From Gemmatimonadota bacterium (lineage in GTDB: Bacteria; Gemmatimonadota; Gemmatimonadetes; Longimicrobiales; Gaopeijiaceae): DNA of 64,000 nt. Positions 42,865 through 49,901 of this stretch are shown in pieces. The DNA is taken from contig JAJDTB010000027.1 in assembly GCA_022827345.1 (NCBI GenBank), forward strand, positions 248,001 through 312,000, given 5' to 3'. The position numbers were made by a program, and so were the translations under genes. Numbering within the stretch: position 1 is the stretch's first letter; every line of letters begins with the position of its first letter. Below the pieces are notes generated by a model. That model worked only from the letters and a program-made list of their open reading frames with translations. It was not told the DNA's origin and did not search any database.

Positions 42865-44295
42865 ATGTCACGCACGCTGCGCACCGCGGCACTCACACTC
42901 GCGGCACTGCCGGCCACCCTCGCCATCGCAGGCTGCCAGCCGGACACCGACAGCGAACCCACCTACCGGGAAGCCGCCGCGGCAGACGATGACTTCCGCC
43001 TCAGGTCCGATGTCGAAGCAGCCCTTCCCGCCCGCGCCGAAGCCTTCACGGCCGACCCCGACGACAACGATGCCCGCTGGGCCTACGCCGACATCCTCTT
43101 CAAGCTGGGGAACATGTGGGAGGCCGACGACGTCATCGCGCCGCTCGCCAACCCCTCCTCGTCCAACGTGGACGACCTTCACCTCGCGGCCCGGCTGGCC
43201 TACGTGCTCGGCGACTACGCCCGCGCCGAGCCCCTCTACCGCCGCATGATGGAGCTCACCGAGGCAGGCTCCGAAGCCCACGACGACGCGACCCGGGGCC
43301 TCGCCCTCACCTTCTACCAGACCAACCGGTTCGCCGACGCCCAGGAACTCCCCGCGCCCGAGGACAGCGAGGGCGCATCGAGCCTCATCACCTTCATGCA
43401 GGCCTTCGAGGGCGAGCCCTACGGCATCGAGTGGGCCACGGGCGAGCGCATCGCGCACCTCCCGATGACCAACGACATCACCGTGCCCGGCGCCCTCCCC
43501 ATCGTCGACCTCGAAGTCAACGGCCAGACCGTCTCGCTCATCCTCGACACCGGCGGCGACCGCCTCTACCTCGACAAGGGCATCTACGAGAGCCTGGGCC
43601 TCAACACCCTCACACACCGCCAGGCCCGCTACGCCTACACCGGCGGTGAGACCGTCGAAGAGCCCCTCGGGGTCGCCGAGTCGGTCACCATGGGCGATGT
43701 CACCCTCACCAACGTGCCCGTCGTCGGCGCCACCTGGAAGGAGATCGGCCAGACCAGCGACGGCGTCCTCACCACCCAGCTGCTCAAGCAGTTCCTGAGC
43801 ACAATGGACTACGACAACAGCCGCATCACGCTGCGCGAACGCACCCCGGAATCCCTCGCCCAGGTCATGGCGACCCTCGGCGACATGCCGCCGCCGGTCC
43901 AGGCGCCCTTCTACATGACGACCACGCACCTCATGTTCGCCAAGGGCAGCCTGAACGGCCACGAAGGCATCAACTACTTCCTCGACTCGGGCCTTGCAAT
44001 GAGCATGCCCATGATCGTCGTCGACGAAACCGTCGAGCTCCTCGGCCTCGAAACCAACGCCATCGAAGGCACCAACTACTACTGGACATCCATCGAGTCC
44101 CACGGCCTGAACGGCCTGACCAGCGGCGCCACGCAAGCCCTGGGCAACGTCTTCGTCGAAGACAATTTCTTCTGGCAGGCCGGCTTCATGGCGGACGCCC
44201 TCATGTCCCACCAGTACCTCTGGCCCCTCGGATCCTGGACGATCGACTTCGACAACATGACCTACTACTTCCCGGCACAGGAGTCTGAAGGATGA
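42865..44295 (+). CDS. Retropepsin-like aspartyl protease lipoprotein with TPR region
   Basis: ATG at 42865 has AGGAG 8 nt upstream; earlier in-frame codons are upstream of it. The 476-residue protein has lipobox AIAGC (Cys24), a TPR-like helical region (about residues 65-165, DARWAYADILFKLGNMWEADDV, LAARLAYVLGDYARAEPLYRRMMEL), and an aspartyl protease domain. DTGGD at 228-232 is the catalytic Asp motif, and FLDSGLAMSMP may be the second. It resembles bacterial retropepsin-like aspartyl proteases anchored in the envelope. The stop overlaps the M23 gene as ATGA. Confidence 0.82.
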   Translation: MSRTLRTAALTLAALPATLAIAGCQPDTDSEPTYREAAAADDDFRLRSDVEAALPARAEAFTADPDDNDARWAYADILFKLGNMWEADDVIAPLANPSSSNVDDLHLAARLAYVLGDYARAEPLYRRMMELTEAGSEAHDDATRGLALTFYQTNRFADAQELPAPEDSEGASSLITFMQAFEGEPYGIEWATGERIAHLPMTNDITVPGALPIVDLEVNGQTVSLILDTGGDRLYLDKGIYESLGLNTLTHRQARYAYTGGETVEEPLGVAESVTMGDVTLTNVPVVGATWKEIGQTSDGVLTTQLLKQFLSTMDYDNSRITLRERTPESLAQVMATLGDMPPPVQAPFYMTTTHLMFAKGSLNGHEGINYFLDSGLAMSMPMIVVDETVELLGLETNAIEGTNYYWTSIESHGLNGLTSGATQALGNVFVEDNFFWQAGFMADALMSHQYLWPLGSWTIDFDNMTYYFPAQESEG

Positions 44296-45518
44296 GAGTA
44301 CGCCGCTGTTCTCCCGGATCGCTTTCCACGCGCCTCCGCTTCGCGCTCGGCCACGCAATCGCGCCTGCGTTATGCGCGGCGCCCCTCGCGGCCTCCGCGT
44401 TGCTGGCTTTGCCCGCGGTCCCGGCCGCGGCCCAGTCCCTGCGCCCCTTCCCCCCACCCTTCGAGATCCGCGTGCCCGTCCCCCCCGGCCCGCTCGTCTC
44501 CGGAGACACCCGCTACTTCGTCTACGAGCTCCTGATCACGAGCTTCCTGCCCGCCCCGGCGCAGGTGAGCCGTGTCGAGGTCTTCGCCGAATCGGCAGAG
44601 GGACAGCGCCTGCTGGAGTACACGGGCGAGGAGCTGGGCGGCAACATGCTTCCGCCGTTCATCCAGGAGGACGATCCGGTCGTGCAGCGAACCATCGAGC
44701 CCCGGTCGCACGGGGTGGTGTACGTCATGCTGTCCCTGCCGGCATCCGCCGCCACCCCGCGGCAGTTCTTCCACCGCGTGTGGTTCGACCTTCCCGCGGG
44801 CGACTCCACCGAGGCCGACTACGTGGCCCTGGAGACGCCGATCCACGAGGGCTCCGTGATCGAGGTGGGGCCGCCGCTCCGGGGCGGACCGTGGGCGGTG
44901 TTCAACGGTCCCTCCAACGACTCCGGGCACCGCCGCATGCCGCTGCAGCTCTTCGGGCGCTCGGCGTTCGCGCAGCGGTACGCGATCGACTACATGCTGG
45001 TCGACGCCGAGGGCCGCGCCTTTCCTGTGGAGGGCGGCGACAACGACACCTATCCGGGCTACGGCGCCGAGGTGATCGCCGTGGCGGACGGGGTCGTCTC
45101 CTCCGTGCTCGACGGCGTCCCGGAGAACCGTCCCGGAGAGACCTCGCGCCCCGAGGTCTTCAACCTGTCCACCGCCATCGGCAACCACGTCATTCTGGAC
45201 ATCGGAGAGAACCGCTACGCGCTGTACGCCCACCTTCTGCCCGGGAGCGTGCCGGTCCAGGTCGGCCAGCAGGTGCGGCGCGGCCAGGTGCTCGGCCAGG
45301 TCGGCAACTCCGGCAACTCGGGTGGTCCGCACCTGCACTTCCACATCACCGACGAGAACGTGCCGCTCGGTGCGGAAGGGTTGCCGTTCGTGCACGATGC
45401 CTTCGACCTGCTGGGCTTCTGCCGCCAGGGACCAGCCGGGCCATGCGAGATGCACGAGCCCAAGACGCGGCGAGGCGAGACCCCCATGCGGGATCAGCTG
45501 ATCCGGTTTCCGAGGTAG
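44292..45518 (+). CDS. Secreted M23-family (LytM) metallopeptidase
   Basis: The 408-residue protein has a signal peptide (ALLALPAVPAAAQ), an all-beta N-terminal domain (to about residue 215) and an M23 domain. Its zinc motifs are GHRRMPLQLFGRSAFAQRYAIDYMLVD, which supplies the first His/Asp region, and PHLHFHI (HxH 347-349), with GYGAEVIAVADGVVSSVLDG and GNHVILDIGENRYALYAHL between them. These enzymes cut peptidoglycan cross-links or act as Zn endopeptidases. ATGA overlap with the upstream protease implies coupled synthesis in the envelope. Confidence 0.88.
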   Translation: MRVRRCSPGSLSTRLRFALGHAIAPALCAAPLAASALLALPAVPAAAQSLRPFPPPFEIRVPVPPGPLVSGDTRYFVYELLITSFLPAPAQVSRVEVFAESAEGQRLLEYTGEELGGNMLPPFIQEDDPVVQRTIEPRSHGVVYVMLSLPASAATPRQFFHRVWFDLPAGDSTEADYVALETPIHEGSVIEVGPPLRGGPWAVFNGPSNDSGHRRMPLQLFGRSAFAQRYAIDYMLVDAEGRAFPVEGGDNDTYPGYGAEVIAVADGVVSSVLDGVPENRPGETSRPEVFNLSTAIGNHVILDIGENRYALYAHLLPGSVPVQVGQQVRRGQVLGQVGNSGNSGGPHLHFHITDENVPLGAEGLPFVHDAFDLLGFCRQGPAGPCEMHEPKTRRGETPMRDQLIRFPR

Positions 45519-45784
45519 CGGAGATCAGCCTCCACGTCAGGGAACATTCCAGGCGACGGAAGTCTGGCACCGTCAGTGGTCAAGGAATCCTTGGTACCTG
45601 ACACGTGTGGCAAAGGCTGGGAACGAGCAGGAACGCCCGATTCCTCCCTGCGTCCGCCGCACCTCCACGGACGACGACGCCCAAGCCAGGAACGCCGGTG
45701 CGAACGTCCGCCAGCTCCATCCGCAGTCGCACCTGGAAAGCGTGGAATCTTGAGCGTGATAATGCGTTATCAAGCGGTTATCTC
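45519..45784. other. Intergenic region upstream of the defence-like pair
   Basis: No supported gene lies here. It has a small palindromic block, CAAGG-AAT-CCTTG (45581-45593), with TGGCACCGTCAG to its left and GGTACCTGACAC to its right, an arrangement like short REP-type palindromes. GC content falls toward the 3' end where the promoter lies. No protein with recognisable features was found in any frame. Confidence 0.4.
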
Positions 45785-45813
45785 TTGACAGTCGACGAAA
45801 AATTTGCTAGTAT
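45785..45813 (+). promoter_or_regulatory. Sigma70-type promoter predicting a leaderless transcript
   Basis: TTGACA (45785-45790) and TAGTAT (45808-45813) are separated by exactly 17 bp. The -10 ends 5 nt before the ATG at 45819, so the predicted transcription start coincides with that ATG. There is no Shine-Dalgarno sequence ahead of the ATG, consistent with a leaderless mRNA. This is the best consensus promoter noticed in the window. Confidence 0.65.
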
Positions 45814-45818
45814 GGATT

Positions 45819-47024
45819 ATGATTCACAATTTCTCGGTATCCAACTACGGATCAGTTCGGGACACGGTGACCCTTGATCTGCGGATTCGGGGCACGGCGC
45901 CCGACCTGGCGTGCTTCCGCCACAGCAGTGTCAAGCCCGACCTTCAGCTACCTGCGGTCGCTGTCCTGATGGGGCCCAACGGGTCCGGAAAGACGACCTT
46001 GCTACGTGCCCTGCTGGACATGGCGCGCTACGTCTCCTCATTCAACGAGACCATCTGGCTGGTGCCCTTTCTGAGCGAAGAGACCCGGTGGGAACCGACT
46101 CGGTTTTCGGTGGAGGGTGAATGGGACTGGTTGTCGCCCGGTAACGGCTCACAGCGATTCCGCTACGAGCTGGTGGTCGGGCGGATGCCGTCCGAGAACG
46201 GGTCCGAACACATGTTCGTGATCCGCGAGGCGCTTCTCCACTTCCCTAAGGGGCGGAAGCGGAGGTTGTACGAGAGGCGTGGCGAAGGAGCGCCGGTCTA
46301 CGTCTCGCGCGATTTTGGGGTCCGACGGTCGGACGACCGGCTGCGGGGCCTCGGTCCGACCACGTCGGTGATCGCCATGATGGCCATGTTCAACGTGCCC
46401 CTGGCTCGACGAATCGCGGACTGGATGCGGGGCTGGCTCGGAAATACGACAAACGTGTTCGGCAACGACACTCGTTCGCTGGACACCGAAACGGCGATTG
46501 GATGGATCGAAGCGAATCCCGACTCGAGACGTTGGGCAGAGACACAGCTCGGTCGCAGTGATGTAGGGATACGAGGCCTCGAGGTCGCCCGGGACGCCGA
46601 AGGGACCAGGTACGTGCGGTTCGAACACTCCGGGTTAGACGCCCCTGTCGTCCTTGGTCTGGAGTCCAACGGCACCCGGCGCCTGTTCCACCTACTGCCG
46701 ATGATCAAACACGCGCTCAACGTAACCGGCCTGGCGGTTCTGGACGAGATCGACGGTGATCTTCACGTGGATGTCGTTGTGGAGTTGCTGCGACTGTTCC
46801 GCTCTCGCGAGAGCAATCCCCGGGGTGCGCAGCTTCTCGTAACTTCGCATCACGTCGGCCTCCTTGACGAGCTGGAGAAGGAAGAGGTCTTCATCGTGGA
46901 GAAGGACGCGGGAGGTGCCACACAGGTGTACGGCGCCCAGGATGTTCGAGGTCTTCGCCGCGATGTCCGGCTGTACCCAAAATACCGAGCGGGAGTGCTC
47001 GGCGGCATCCCTCGGATCGGGTGA
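45819..47024 (+). CDS. AAA15-type ATPase of a candidate RloAB/AbiL-like defence pair
   Basis: ATG at 45819 gives 401 residues. The N terminus MIHNFSVSNYGSVRDTVTLDL is typical of RecF/SMC-like AAA15 ATPases (RloA, AbiLi), with Walker A GPNGSGKT (52-59). Near residue 305 is the Walker B-like LAVLDEIDGDLH, followed by LLVTSHHVGLLDEL (switch region) and EEVFIVEKDAGGATQVY. The stop overlaps the next gene as GTGA. In such pairs the ATPase binds or senses phage DNA and controls a nuclease-like partner. The gene uses AT-richer promoter DNA than its neighbours. Confidence 0.8.
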   Translation: MIHNFSVSNYGSVRDTVTLDLRIRGTAPDLACFRHSSVKPDLQLPAVAVLMGPNGSGKTTLLRALLDMARYVSSFNETIWLVPFLSEETRWEPTRFSVEGEWDWLSPGNGSQRFRYELVVGRMPSENGSEHMFVIREALLHFPKGRKRRLYERRGEGAPVYVSRDFGVRRSDDRLRGLGPTTSVIAMMAMFNVPLARRIADWMRGWLGNTTNVFGNDTRSLDTETAIGWIEANPDSRRWAETQLGRSDVGIRGLEVARDAEGTRYVRFEHSGLDAPVVLGLESNGTRRLFHLLPMIKHALNVTGLAVLDEIDGDLHVDVVVELLRLFRSRESNPRGAQLLVTSHHVGLLDELEKEEVFIVEKDAGGATQVYGAQDVRGLRRDVRLYPKYRAGVLGGIPRIG

Positions 47025-47590
47025 GGGGGTCGCGGCGTAGGCGAGACGTGCCGCGCAGGCGCGTCATCTTTGTTGGGGTTGAGGGAAAGAGCGACCGAGC
47101 GTTCGTGCGGTTTCTCGGTCTGCTGTGCGATCAGGAGAGCCTCCACGTGCACCTCGACGTCAAGCCTTGCAACGGCGGTGACTCGCTGAGCGTCGTTAGA
47201 GAGACTGCGCGTCGACTGAGGCGGCATCCCGAAAAGCGCGGAATAGCGACGCGCTTGGTGCTGCTGGACTTTGACCGCATGCAGGCGGATCTGGCTTCGG
47301 GCCGGGATGCGCTCCCGGAGGCTGAGAAACACGGGCTGGAAGCGGTGCTCTTCAATCCGAACCTTGAGGGGCTGATTGTGCGACTATACAAGGGATACGA
47401 GGGGCGTCGGATAACCGCGCGAGACGCGCAGAACCAATTGCGGAGACTCTGGCCGACATACTCAAAATCTTCGTTGACCGCCAATCAGCTGTGGCAGCGA
47501 TTCTCCCTCGGTGACCTCAAGCGGGCAGCGGGACGCGACGACGAGCTGTTTAAGCTACTCTTGGCCTTGGGGCTCATTCGGCGGGCTTGA
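47021..47590 (+). CDS. RloB/AbiLii-like TOPRIM-fold protein
   Basis: GTG at 47021 overlaps the ATPase stop (GTGA) and gives 189 residues. The TOPRIM-like pattern is visible: VGVEGKSDRAFVRFL (Glu21), CNGGDSLSVV and ATRLVLLDFDRM with Asp83 and Asp85. FNPNLEGLIVRLYKGYEGRR corresponds in place to the SNP-x-FELW motif of RloB, and LWPTYSKSS to its YsKs segment. RloB-like proteins partner AAA15 ATPases and are thought to cut nucleic acids in abortive infection. The match is divergent, so subfamily is uncertain; the fold and the pairing are the stronger evidence. Confidence 0.72.
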   Translation: MRGSRRRRDVPRRRVIFVGVEGKSDRAFVRFLGLLCDQESLHVHLDVKPCNGGDSLSVVRETARRLRRHPEKRGIATRLVLLDFDRMQADLASGRDALPEAEKHGLEAVLFNPNLEGLIVRLYKGYEGRRITARDAQNQLRRLWPTYSKSSLTANQLWQRFSLGDLKRAAGRDDELFKLLLALGLIRRA

Positions 47591-47624
47591 TTCCTGCTCT
47601 TGAAGACCTCAATAGGAGCGCACC

Positions 47625-49901
47625 ATGAACCCAACCCGCATTCTCGCCGTTGGCGCGGCGTTGCTGGCGGTCACCGCCGCGCTGCCCGACATCCCACGGA
47701 CTCATCCCTCCACAGACCGGGTCGCCACGTTCGGCCAGTCCGCCGACCAGGTCACCATTCACCGCGACCCGTGGGGAGTCCCCCACATCATCGCCGACAC
47801 AGAGGAAGCCGGCTTCTACGGTCTCGGGTACGCTCAGGCTGAAGATCAACTTGAGTTTATCTTGACGATGTTCCTGGCCGGGCGCGGCGAACTCGCGGCG
47901 GCTTTCGGGGAGGAACCGACCAGCGGTTTCGGCGGCCCGGCGGCGGCGAGCGCCATCCCCGGCGACATCCAGTCCCGCATGTGGCGGCACGTCGAGGAGG
48001 CACAGGCGGGGTGGGAGCGCCTCAGCCCCCAGCTGCAGGCCAACTACACCCACTACGTCGCGGGCATGGAAGCGTGGATGGCCGAACACCCGGACGACAC
48101 GCCGGACTGGGCGCCCGACCTCGAGCCCTGGGACCCGGTGGTGCTCTCGCGCTTCGTGCTCTGGCCCGGCTACCAGGCGGGACAGGGCCTGCAGGACTGC
48201 GCGCGCGGCGGCGTCCAGCTCGCCGCCATCGACCGCGACGGCCTCGCCCGCGCCGACCAAAACGCATCCAACGAGTGGATCCTGGCTCCGTGGCGGACGC
48301 GTGCGGGTGCCATGATCGTGCTGAGCGACCCGCACGGTGGCATCGACGGCGCCTTCACCTACGAGTCACGCATGCACGCCGGCGATCTGCACGCGGCGGG
48401 CTACTCGCTCGGGCCCATGCTCATCCTCACGCACACTCGCGACGTGTCCTGGGGGATGACCACCGGTGCGCCCGACGTCGCCGACTGCTACGAGGTCGAA
48501 GTCGATCCCGCCGACTCGCTGCGCTACCAGTACGATGGCGAGTGGCGCCGGATGGAGACGCACGACGTCACCATCGAGGTGCGGGGCGGTGACCCGGTCA
48601 CCCAGACCTTCGCGTATACCCGCCACAACGACGTCCTCTCGCCCGTCGTTGCGCGGCAGGACGGCAGGGCCTTCGTGGTGAGCACGTCCTACATGCACAC
48701 CGCCGGCGACTTCGACCAGGAGGTCTACGAGATCAACCACGCCCGCAACATCGGCGACGTCAAACAGGCCATGCGGCGGCTCGGCATGTTCCCCCAGAAC
48801 GTCATGTTCGGCGACCGCCACGGCGACTCGTGGTACATCCGCGCGGGCCGCACCCCGCAGCGCCCCGACGGCTACGACTGGAACCGTCCCGTCCCGGGCA
48901 ACACGTCGGCCACGGCCTGGCTCGGGATCCACCCGGTCGAAGACCTCGTCCAGCTCGAGACCCCCGCCGCGGGCTACATGCAGAACAACAACATCGCGCC
49001 CGACGTGATGCTCGAGGACAGCCCGCTCACCGCCGACCGCTATCCGCCGTACATCTACAACGACACGCCGGGACGACGGAATTCGCGCGGCGTGCGCGCC
49101 GTCGACGTCCTATCGGGCGCGTGGGACTTCACCTTCGACGACGCCGTCGAACTTTCCCTCGACGAGATGTGGGTCGGCACCGCGGCCTGGCAGGACGCGC
49201 TCCGGCAGGCCCTCAATGCCGACCTCGACCGCGTCCAGGCCGCCGCGCCGCAGGTCCGTACCCTCGCCGCCCGGATCCTCGGCTTCGACGGCCACGCCCG
49301 CCAGGAGTCCCGCGCCGCGCACGCCTACCTCGTCTGGCGCGAACAGATCTTCTCGCTCCCCGACCTCGACGAAACGGCCCGCGCAGCCCTCACCGACCCG
49401 CTCTGGGAGAAGGGCGGCGTCCCCGCCGAACACCTCCCGCGCCTCCTCGACGCCCTCGACGGCACCGCCGCCTTCATGCTCGACACCTACGGCTCGATCG
49501 ACCGCACCCTGGGCGACGTCTTCCGCATCGGCCGCGGCGGCCGCACCTGGCCCCTCGGCGGCCTCTCGATCATGCCGCCCGGCACGGCTGGGGTGGGATG
49601 CGCGCTCGACCTCAGCTGCATCTTCACCCTGCGCGCGATGAGCACCTTCAGCCCACCCGACTCGCTGGGCCTGCGCCATGTCCAGATCGGCTCGCGCCTC
49701 CTGCGCCTTGTGCAGTTCACCGACCCCATCCGGTCGTTCACGCTCCACAACTTCGGCCAGAGCGAGAACCCCGATTCGCCGCACTATGTGGATCAGGCCC
49801 AGCTTACCAGCGAGCGGCGCCTCAAGCCGACCTACTTCGACACAGCGGAGCTCATGAACCATGTGGTCTCGACCAAAGTTCTCGACATCAGCGTGCCCTG
49901 A
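47625..49901 (+). CDS. Penicillin acylase-family Ntn hydrolase
   Basis: ATG at 47625 has AGGAG six nt upstream. The 758-residue precursor has a signal-like N terminus, DQVTIHRDPWGVPHIIADTEEAGFYGLGYAQAEDQL at the start of the alpha chain, and the nucleophile NASNEWILAPW with Ser215 as first residue of the beta chain after self-cleavage. GYMQNNNIAPD supplies the oxyanion Asn. Members cleave N-acyl groups from penicillins, homoserine lactones or N-acyl amino acids; the last fits the D-aminoacylases in this window. The 3' end overlaps the next gene by 41 bp. Confidence 0.92.
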   Translation: MNPTRILAVGAALLAVTAALPDIPRTHPSTDRVATFGQSADQVTIHRDPWGVPHIIADTEEAGFYGLGYAQAEDQLEFILTMFLAGRGELAAAFGEEPTSGFGGPAAASAIPGDIQSRMWRHVEEAQAGWERLSPQLQANYTHYVAGMEAWMAEHPDDTPDWAPDLEPWDPVVLSRFVLWPGYQAGQGLQDCARGGVQLAAIDRDGLARADQNASNEWILAPWRTRAGAMIVLSDPHGGIDGAFTYESRMHAGDLHAAGYSLGPMLILTHTRDVSWGMTTGAPDVADCYEVEVDPADSLRYQYDGEWRRMETHDVTIEVRGGDPVTQTFAYTRHNDVLSPVVARQDGRAFVVSTSYMHTAGDFDQEVYEINHARNIGDVKQAMRRLGMFPQNVMFGDRHGDSWYIRAGRTPQRPDGYDWNRPVPGNTSATAWLGIHPVEDLVQLETPAAGYMQNNNIAPDVMLEDSPLTADRYPPYIYNDTPGRRNSRGVRAVDVLSGAWDFTFDDAVELSLDEMWVGTAAWQDALRQALNADLDRVQAAAPQVRTLAARILGFDGHARQESRAAHAYLVWREQIFSLPDLDETARAALTDPLWEKGGVPAEHLPRLLDALDGTAAFMLDTYGSIDRTLGDVFRIGRGGRTWPLGGLSIMPPGTAGVGCALDLSCIFTLRAMSTFSPPDSLGLRHVQIGSRLLRLVQFTDPIRSFTLHNFGQSENPDSPHYVDQAQLTSERRLKPTYFDTAELMNHVVSTKVLDISVP

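Follow-up and report, generated by a model that had tools for sequence, protein, structure and literature searches.

The locus analysed here lies in a window of 64,000 nucleotides, by which we mean the whole stretch of DNA that was examined. It holds two overlapping genes, termed A and B, which stand behind a sigma-70-type promoter and between the genes of an M23-type peptidase and a penicillin acylase family protein. The features are listed below in the order of their coordinates.

44292..45518, plus strand: M23-type peptidase gene, the left border, outside the system; found next to the penicillin acylase gene in sister genomes
45785..45813, plus strand: sigma-70-type promoter, TTGACA, 17 nt, TAGTAT, with an extended -10 TG (10/12 matches)
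45794..45807, plus strand: position of the dyad RACG-N6-CGTT, of which only the left half GACG (45794-45797) is intact, as seen by comparison with relatives
45819..47024, plus strand: gene A, AbiLi/RloA-type stand-alone ABC/RecF-like ATPase, 401 aa, assigned by AbiLi and AAA_21 matches, motifs and dN/dS
47021..47024, plus strand: GTGA overlap of the A stop TGA (47022-47024) with the B start GTG (47021), read from the sequence; a 4-nt overlap is also found in plasmid relatives
47021..47590, plus strand: gene B, divergent RloB/AbiLii-type TOPRIM protein, 189 aa, assigned by profiles, a structure model and a structural match to OLD TOPRIM domains
47625..49901, plus strand: gene of the penicillin acylase family, which has an AGGAG ribosome site of its own, the right border, outside the system

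All the features from which the first-pass annotation had started, namely the promoter boxes, the ATG at 45819, the Walker A motif at residues 52-59, the GTGA overlap and the residues Glu21, Asp83 and Asp85, are present. A TTG upstream (45804) was considered as the start of A and rejected, since the MIH encoded from the ATG onwards is conserved and the promoter includes the TTG. The GTGA overlap suggests that translation of B is coupled to that of A, and the same 4-nt overlap occurs in the plasmid relatives L067, L068, L069 and L098-L100. Both frames are under purifying selection when compared with same-genus relatives, with dN/dS of 0.10-0.20 for A and 0.14-0.30 for B. The order of A then B recurs in the distant relatives examined, and wherever the surroundings of A were seen a relative of B lies downstream on the same strand, the exceptions in both respects being copies with a damaged or lost B. 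No terminator of note was found after B in the window sequence.

The comparison of the window gap (45519-47624) with nine other loci (L057-L065) shows what else may lie between the two border genes. In the sister genomes G004, G016 and G008 the spot is empty and the border genes are adjacent, about 35-40 nt apart, while the A-B pair fills it in the window. A Schlafen-AlbA_2 gene occupies it in G013, a gene for a small helix-turn-helix protein in G019, and a second M23 copy in G002, G009 and G015. Judged from these sequences, the gap between the M23 peptidase and the penicillin acylase is a small variable spot for accessory genes, and the earlier remark that the pair sits alone between these borders is right for the window locus. 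Upstream of the penicillin acylase gene of G001 there is also a 315-aa protein (L063 880-1827) with no Pfam or PADLOC match, whose C-terminus reads like a nucleoside deoxyribosyltransferase or a TIR-like domain and which may be an effector.

Gene A encodes an intact stand-alone ATPase, whose chain ends at residue 401 without a TOPRIM domain. It carries Walker A (GPNGSGKT, residues 52-59), an ABC-signature-like stretch (LESNGTRRL, residues 281-289), Walker B (LAVLDEIDG, residues 305-313) and an H-loop (SHH), and these motifs are largely conserved among the relatives. The PADLOC check that had been proposed gives a strong match to AbiLi (190.5 bits, E 9.7e-57, residues 1-400), while the AriA model scores 85 bits, more than 100 bits lower. 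In Pfam the best match is AAA_21 with 87 bits (cut-off 27), and AAA_15 reaches 31.4, just under its cut-off of 32.1, a refinement of the original description of A as an AAA15 protein. The solved structures related to A by sequence are PtuA ATPases. Its own structure model is poor (54.5), too poor for a structure search.

Gene B contains the motifs Glu21, Asp83-x-Asp85, Pro113-x2-Glu116 and Tyr147-x-Lys149, with Glu21, Asp83 and Asp85 invariant in 10 homologues. Taken by itself it scores 15 bits with the Pfam RloB model PF13707, below the curated cut-off of 31.5, and a weak 13 bits with AbiLii. Among the ten members of the B family, aligned from genus and plasmid relatives, five match RloB (best 6e-10) and four match AbiLii (best 4.8e-12). 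The hhalign comparison of the B profile with four RloB proteins of the same phylum gives a probability of 96.5% (E 8.7e-10), and the EG, DxD, PxxE and YxK motifs of B and of canonical RloB stand in register in the profile alignment. In G059 and G075 an A relative is followed immediately by one of these four RloB genes, and both of these genes score above the Pfam cut-off. The homology of B to RloB and AbiLii, though divergent, is therefore supported by its sequence family. DUF4435 gives no match in B at E up to 1 in Pfam.

The structure model of B (m35cd894c5837), built from the window and viral-contig sequences only, has a mean pLDDT of 82.6 and presents the TOPRIM order of elements, with Glu21 ending strand 1 and Asp83 and Asp85 at the end of strand 3. 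A plain Foldseek search with this model gives no match at E <0.001, lumazine synthases leading the list. In the realigned list PH0156 comes first (Z 8.3) and the OLD protein of Thermus scotoductus next, its TOPRIM domain aligning with a Z of 7.2 and an rmsd of 4.4 over 132 residues, a score that unrelated alpha/beta folds closely approach; the OLD C-termini reach Z 6.3, overlapping unrelated alpha/beta folds such as lumazine synthase. Structures of RloB and AriB are absent from the structural lists, which says nothing either way, and phmmer and hmmsearch against PDB sequences return nothing meaningful for B. With unrelated folds so close behind in Z, we base the TOPRIM call on motifs, topology and homology and do not rely solely on the structural score. 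According to the model, B is predicted to have TOPRIM topology with Glu21, Asp83 and Asp85 at the catalytic positions. The TOPRIM-like residues and RloB-like character ascribed to the second protein at first reading are thus borne out by family profiles, hhalign and model topology, and the fold for which a model had been called is the one predicted.

The promoter deserves a separate description. TTGACA (45785-45790) and TAGTAT (45808-45813) are separated by 17 nt, a TG stands just before the -10 box, and with 10/12 matches this is the best of 3 sites found against 0.6 expected. The ATG is at 45819, so that a start of transcription about 6-7 nt past the -10 box, as predicted, falls on it. In the class, 14 of the 15 copies, the window included, have a TANNNT box that ends 4-6 nt ahead of the start codon, and a Shine-Dalgarno sequence before A is found in none of the 15; several more remote relatives of A do carry one. 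When 43 rough gene calls in the window were compared, A alone combined a -35/-10 pair at leaderless distance with the absence of a Shine-Dalgarno sequence. As the spacing is kept at a protein identity of about 60%, chance is unlikely, and the mRNA of A probably starts at its start codon, that is, without a leader. The leaderless-type promoter proposed for the window accordingly extends to nearly all of its relatives in the class.

A dyad, RACG-N6-CGTTR, lies between the -35 and -10 boxes in many relatives of A. The search for it began with the window, where it is not intact, the window copy having decayed to its left half. Of 26 sequences taken upstream of A, each 60 nt long, 10 contain it (L025, L026, L027, L028, L031, L087, L088, L068, L069 and L102), seven of them from the class, all at one fixed distance, and three from alphaproteobacterial plasmids, so that two distant bacterial groups share it. 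Elsewhere, with both strands read, it appears at about 6-7 other distinct places in about 260 kb. Since the seven copies from the class share a common descent, most weight falls on the plasmid copies. The dyad is possibly an operator, and we list it as a candidate.

Gene A is distributed sporadically. It is present in 10 of 23 genomes of the genus and in 18 of 395 sampled genomes of the phylum, the last few being more remote relatives, and none of the fetched loci outside the window has flanking genes in common with it. Relatives of A are carried by conjugative and mobilisable alphaproteobacterial plasmids and by viral contigs, which we take for prophages; in one viral contig the relative adjoins what appear to be terminase and portal genes. 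Among the neighbours are NACHT and TIR proteins, a type I restriction-modification (R-M) specificity gene and hsdM, an AbiE pair, a Fic protein and a kinase-NERD protein. By these sequence comparisons the pair is exchanged horizontally between genomes, and the search for conserved neighbours of a housekeeping kind shows instead patchy presence and no shared flanks. The AbiEi/AbiEii type IV toxin-antitoxin pair (L028 4690-6241) follows, some 4 kb downstream, an A gene whose B has been lost.

The two genes do not decay alike. In the genus, all 11 main copies keep A as an open, full-length frame, and L032 contains an extra A fragment. Of the B genes in these copies, about four are full-length, two have a changed end and three are truncated (G021, G009 and G003), while two copies lack B (the second one of G007, and that of G020). 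The loci concerned are L024 10433-10789, L029 11814-12158, L031 10115-10492, L025 13388-14593, L028 9937-11142 and L107; some of the assemblies surveyed are fragmented, and G021 is a single contig. The genomes G020 and G008 have a catalase-peroxidase-like neighbour in common, so the B of G020 was probably lost in place. Likewise, no B is annotated behind A in the Rhizobium plasmids CP140869 and CP140833, in the latter of which A is split too. Loss of B ahead of A would be expected were B toxic and kept in check by A.

Considering the known systems, the pair is, as far as sequence can place it, a divergent member of the AbiL (AAA + RloB) kind and not a new kind of system. AbiL of Lactococcus (AbiLi/AbiLii) is likewise bicistronic, an AAA ATPase followed by an RloB-like TOPRIM protein; the window A matches AbiLi over its whole length, while the window B is divergent, and the pair differs by its leaderless-type promoter and perhaps by its GTGA overlap. 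The RloA/RloB-type pairs on plasmids of Agrobacterium, Sphingobium and Mesorhizobium (L067-L069) have the same order and 4-nt overlap as the window, with about 34% identity in A, 28-33% in B, and the EG, DxD and other motifs invariant. They differ in having leaders, several with a Shine-Dalgarno sequence, and the window B in falling under the Pfam cut-off. The proposal of a new subtype is therefore upheld only in part: the sequence of B is divergent, but it belongs to a continuous family, of which annotated 'RloB domain-containing' proteins of alphaproteobacterial plasmids, in the same gene order, are already members. The AbiL/RloB class, which is poorly understood, gains a divergent clade. 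The standard RloB model misses the effector of this clade, and such pairs are for this reason probably under-counted.

Other systems share part of this architecture. PARIS (AriA/AriB) is likewise a split ABC ATPase with a TOPRIM effector, but the window A is closer to AbiLi and the window B is without DUF4435, the effector named in the PARIS detection rule (PMC9122126); membership was rejected on this definition, the AAA_21 ATPase it also names being found in A. OLD family class 1, GajA and retron OLD combine ATPase and TOPRIM modules, and the B model aligns with OLD TOPRIM domains, but the OLD family is a single chain and the window pair has no helicase or reverse transcriptase partner. OLD classes 1-3 were rejected on definition too, A ending at residue 401 and the TOPRIM-like protein being a separate ORF. 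The NetFlax pairs of AAA (D29) and TOPRIM_OLD (D44) are alike by description, D44 being described as RloB-homologous and neutralised by its AAA partner (PMC10440598).

From HMMs, profile-profile comparison, the model, the operon and the mobile, defence-rich contexts, which all agree with the AAA + RloB-like TOPRIM reading of the first-pass annotation, we infer that the pair functions in defence. We consider it probable that it is a horizontally exchanged, two-gene, AbiL-type operon of abortive-infection or toxin-antitoxin-like defence. In the proposed mechanism, which follows that of the split ATPase-TOPRIM systems and is the best supported, the operon would be transcribed from the start codon of A, with B translated by coupling via the GTGA overlap. 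The ATPase A (AbiLi/RloA) would most likely oligomerise, keep the small TOPRIM nuclease B inactive and sense a phage product, whereupon B would be released or activated. With Glu21, Asp83 and Asp85 as its metal-binding site, B would then cut a nucleic acid. The most plausible substrate would be RNA, for instance tRNA as with AriB, and this cleavage would halt growth and block the phage. That A restrains B is, in our estimate, evenly poised. By analogy, AriA sequesters the tRNase AriB and releases it on a phage trigger, upon which AriB cuts tRNA (PMC12409363), and AAA partners neutralise RloB-like TOPRIM toxins (PMC10440598). An AbiLii of Fusobacterium is toxic as well, though its AbiLi did not neutralise it in the one pair tested, and lactococcal AbiLii was not toxic in E. 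coli (all PMC3985639). That RNA is the target of B, again suggested by AriB, is plausible if somewhat doubtful.

Four other readings were weighed against the AbiL-type defence operon. One of them, a plain toxin-antitoxin or addiction module of plasmids and islands with little anti-phage effect, would account for B decaying while A stays intact, for carriage on plasmids and for the neutralisation of RloB-like toxins cited above. It is unlikely, because chromosomal copies lie at many loci beside defence genes and because the AbiL that was studied protects against phage, so far as later papers cite that work (Deng 1999, as cited in PMC10440598 and PMC3985639). The pair might instead be an 'R-linked' accessory that guards or modulates type I R-M and is not an independent abortive system, given that in G021 a type I specificity gene follows it directly, with hsdM about 4.5 kb beyond the pair, and that RloB was originally noticed in operons of type I R-M (PMC10440598); yet an R-M gene beside the pair is seen neither in the window nor in most relatives, and we hold this reading to be quite improbable.

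The chance is slight that the pair is PARIS itself, with a DUF4435 TOPRIM tRNase sensing anti-restriction proteins. The AAA_21 assignment of A, its 85 bits with the AriA model and the same two-gene logic speak for it, and the mechanism may well be alike, but A scores far higher as AbiLi, B lacks DUF4435 and the B family matches RloB and AbiLii. RecF-like ATPases and TOPRIM proteins act in repair, and the activity of B is predicted from sequence and model; B could hence be no nuclease effector and serve DNA repair or another housekeeping task with a RecF-like partner. This is very improbable indeed in view of the sporadic presence in the phylum, the variable insertion spot and the lack of conserved neighbours.

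Within the AbiL-type reading, pairs of this kind might further be self-regulated, with the ATPase, alone or in complex with the toxin, binding the dyad. Activation in the course of infection would then free the toxin and at the same time derepress the operon, and the window lineage would keep a leaderless message from a strong promoter after the dyad decayed. We regard this extension as speculative and rather unlikely. The asymmetric decay of B together with the conserved promoter dyad offers a direct and cheap entry to the toxin-antitoxin logic and autoregulation of AbiL systems. A scan of the genome contigs with the A profile gave only remote ATPases, swamped by Walker A patterns. One remote AAA ATPase of the same superfamily is found in the window's own genome (L002 1501-1878, G000 contig 19), with 30% identity to A over the C-terminal part (E 7.6e-4).
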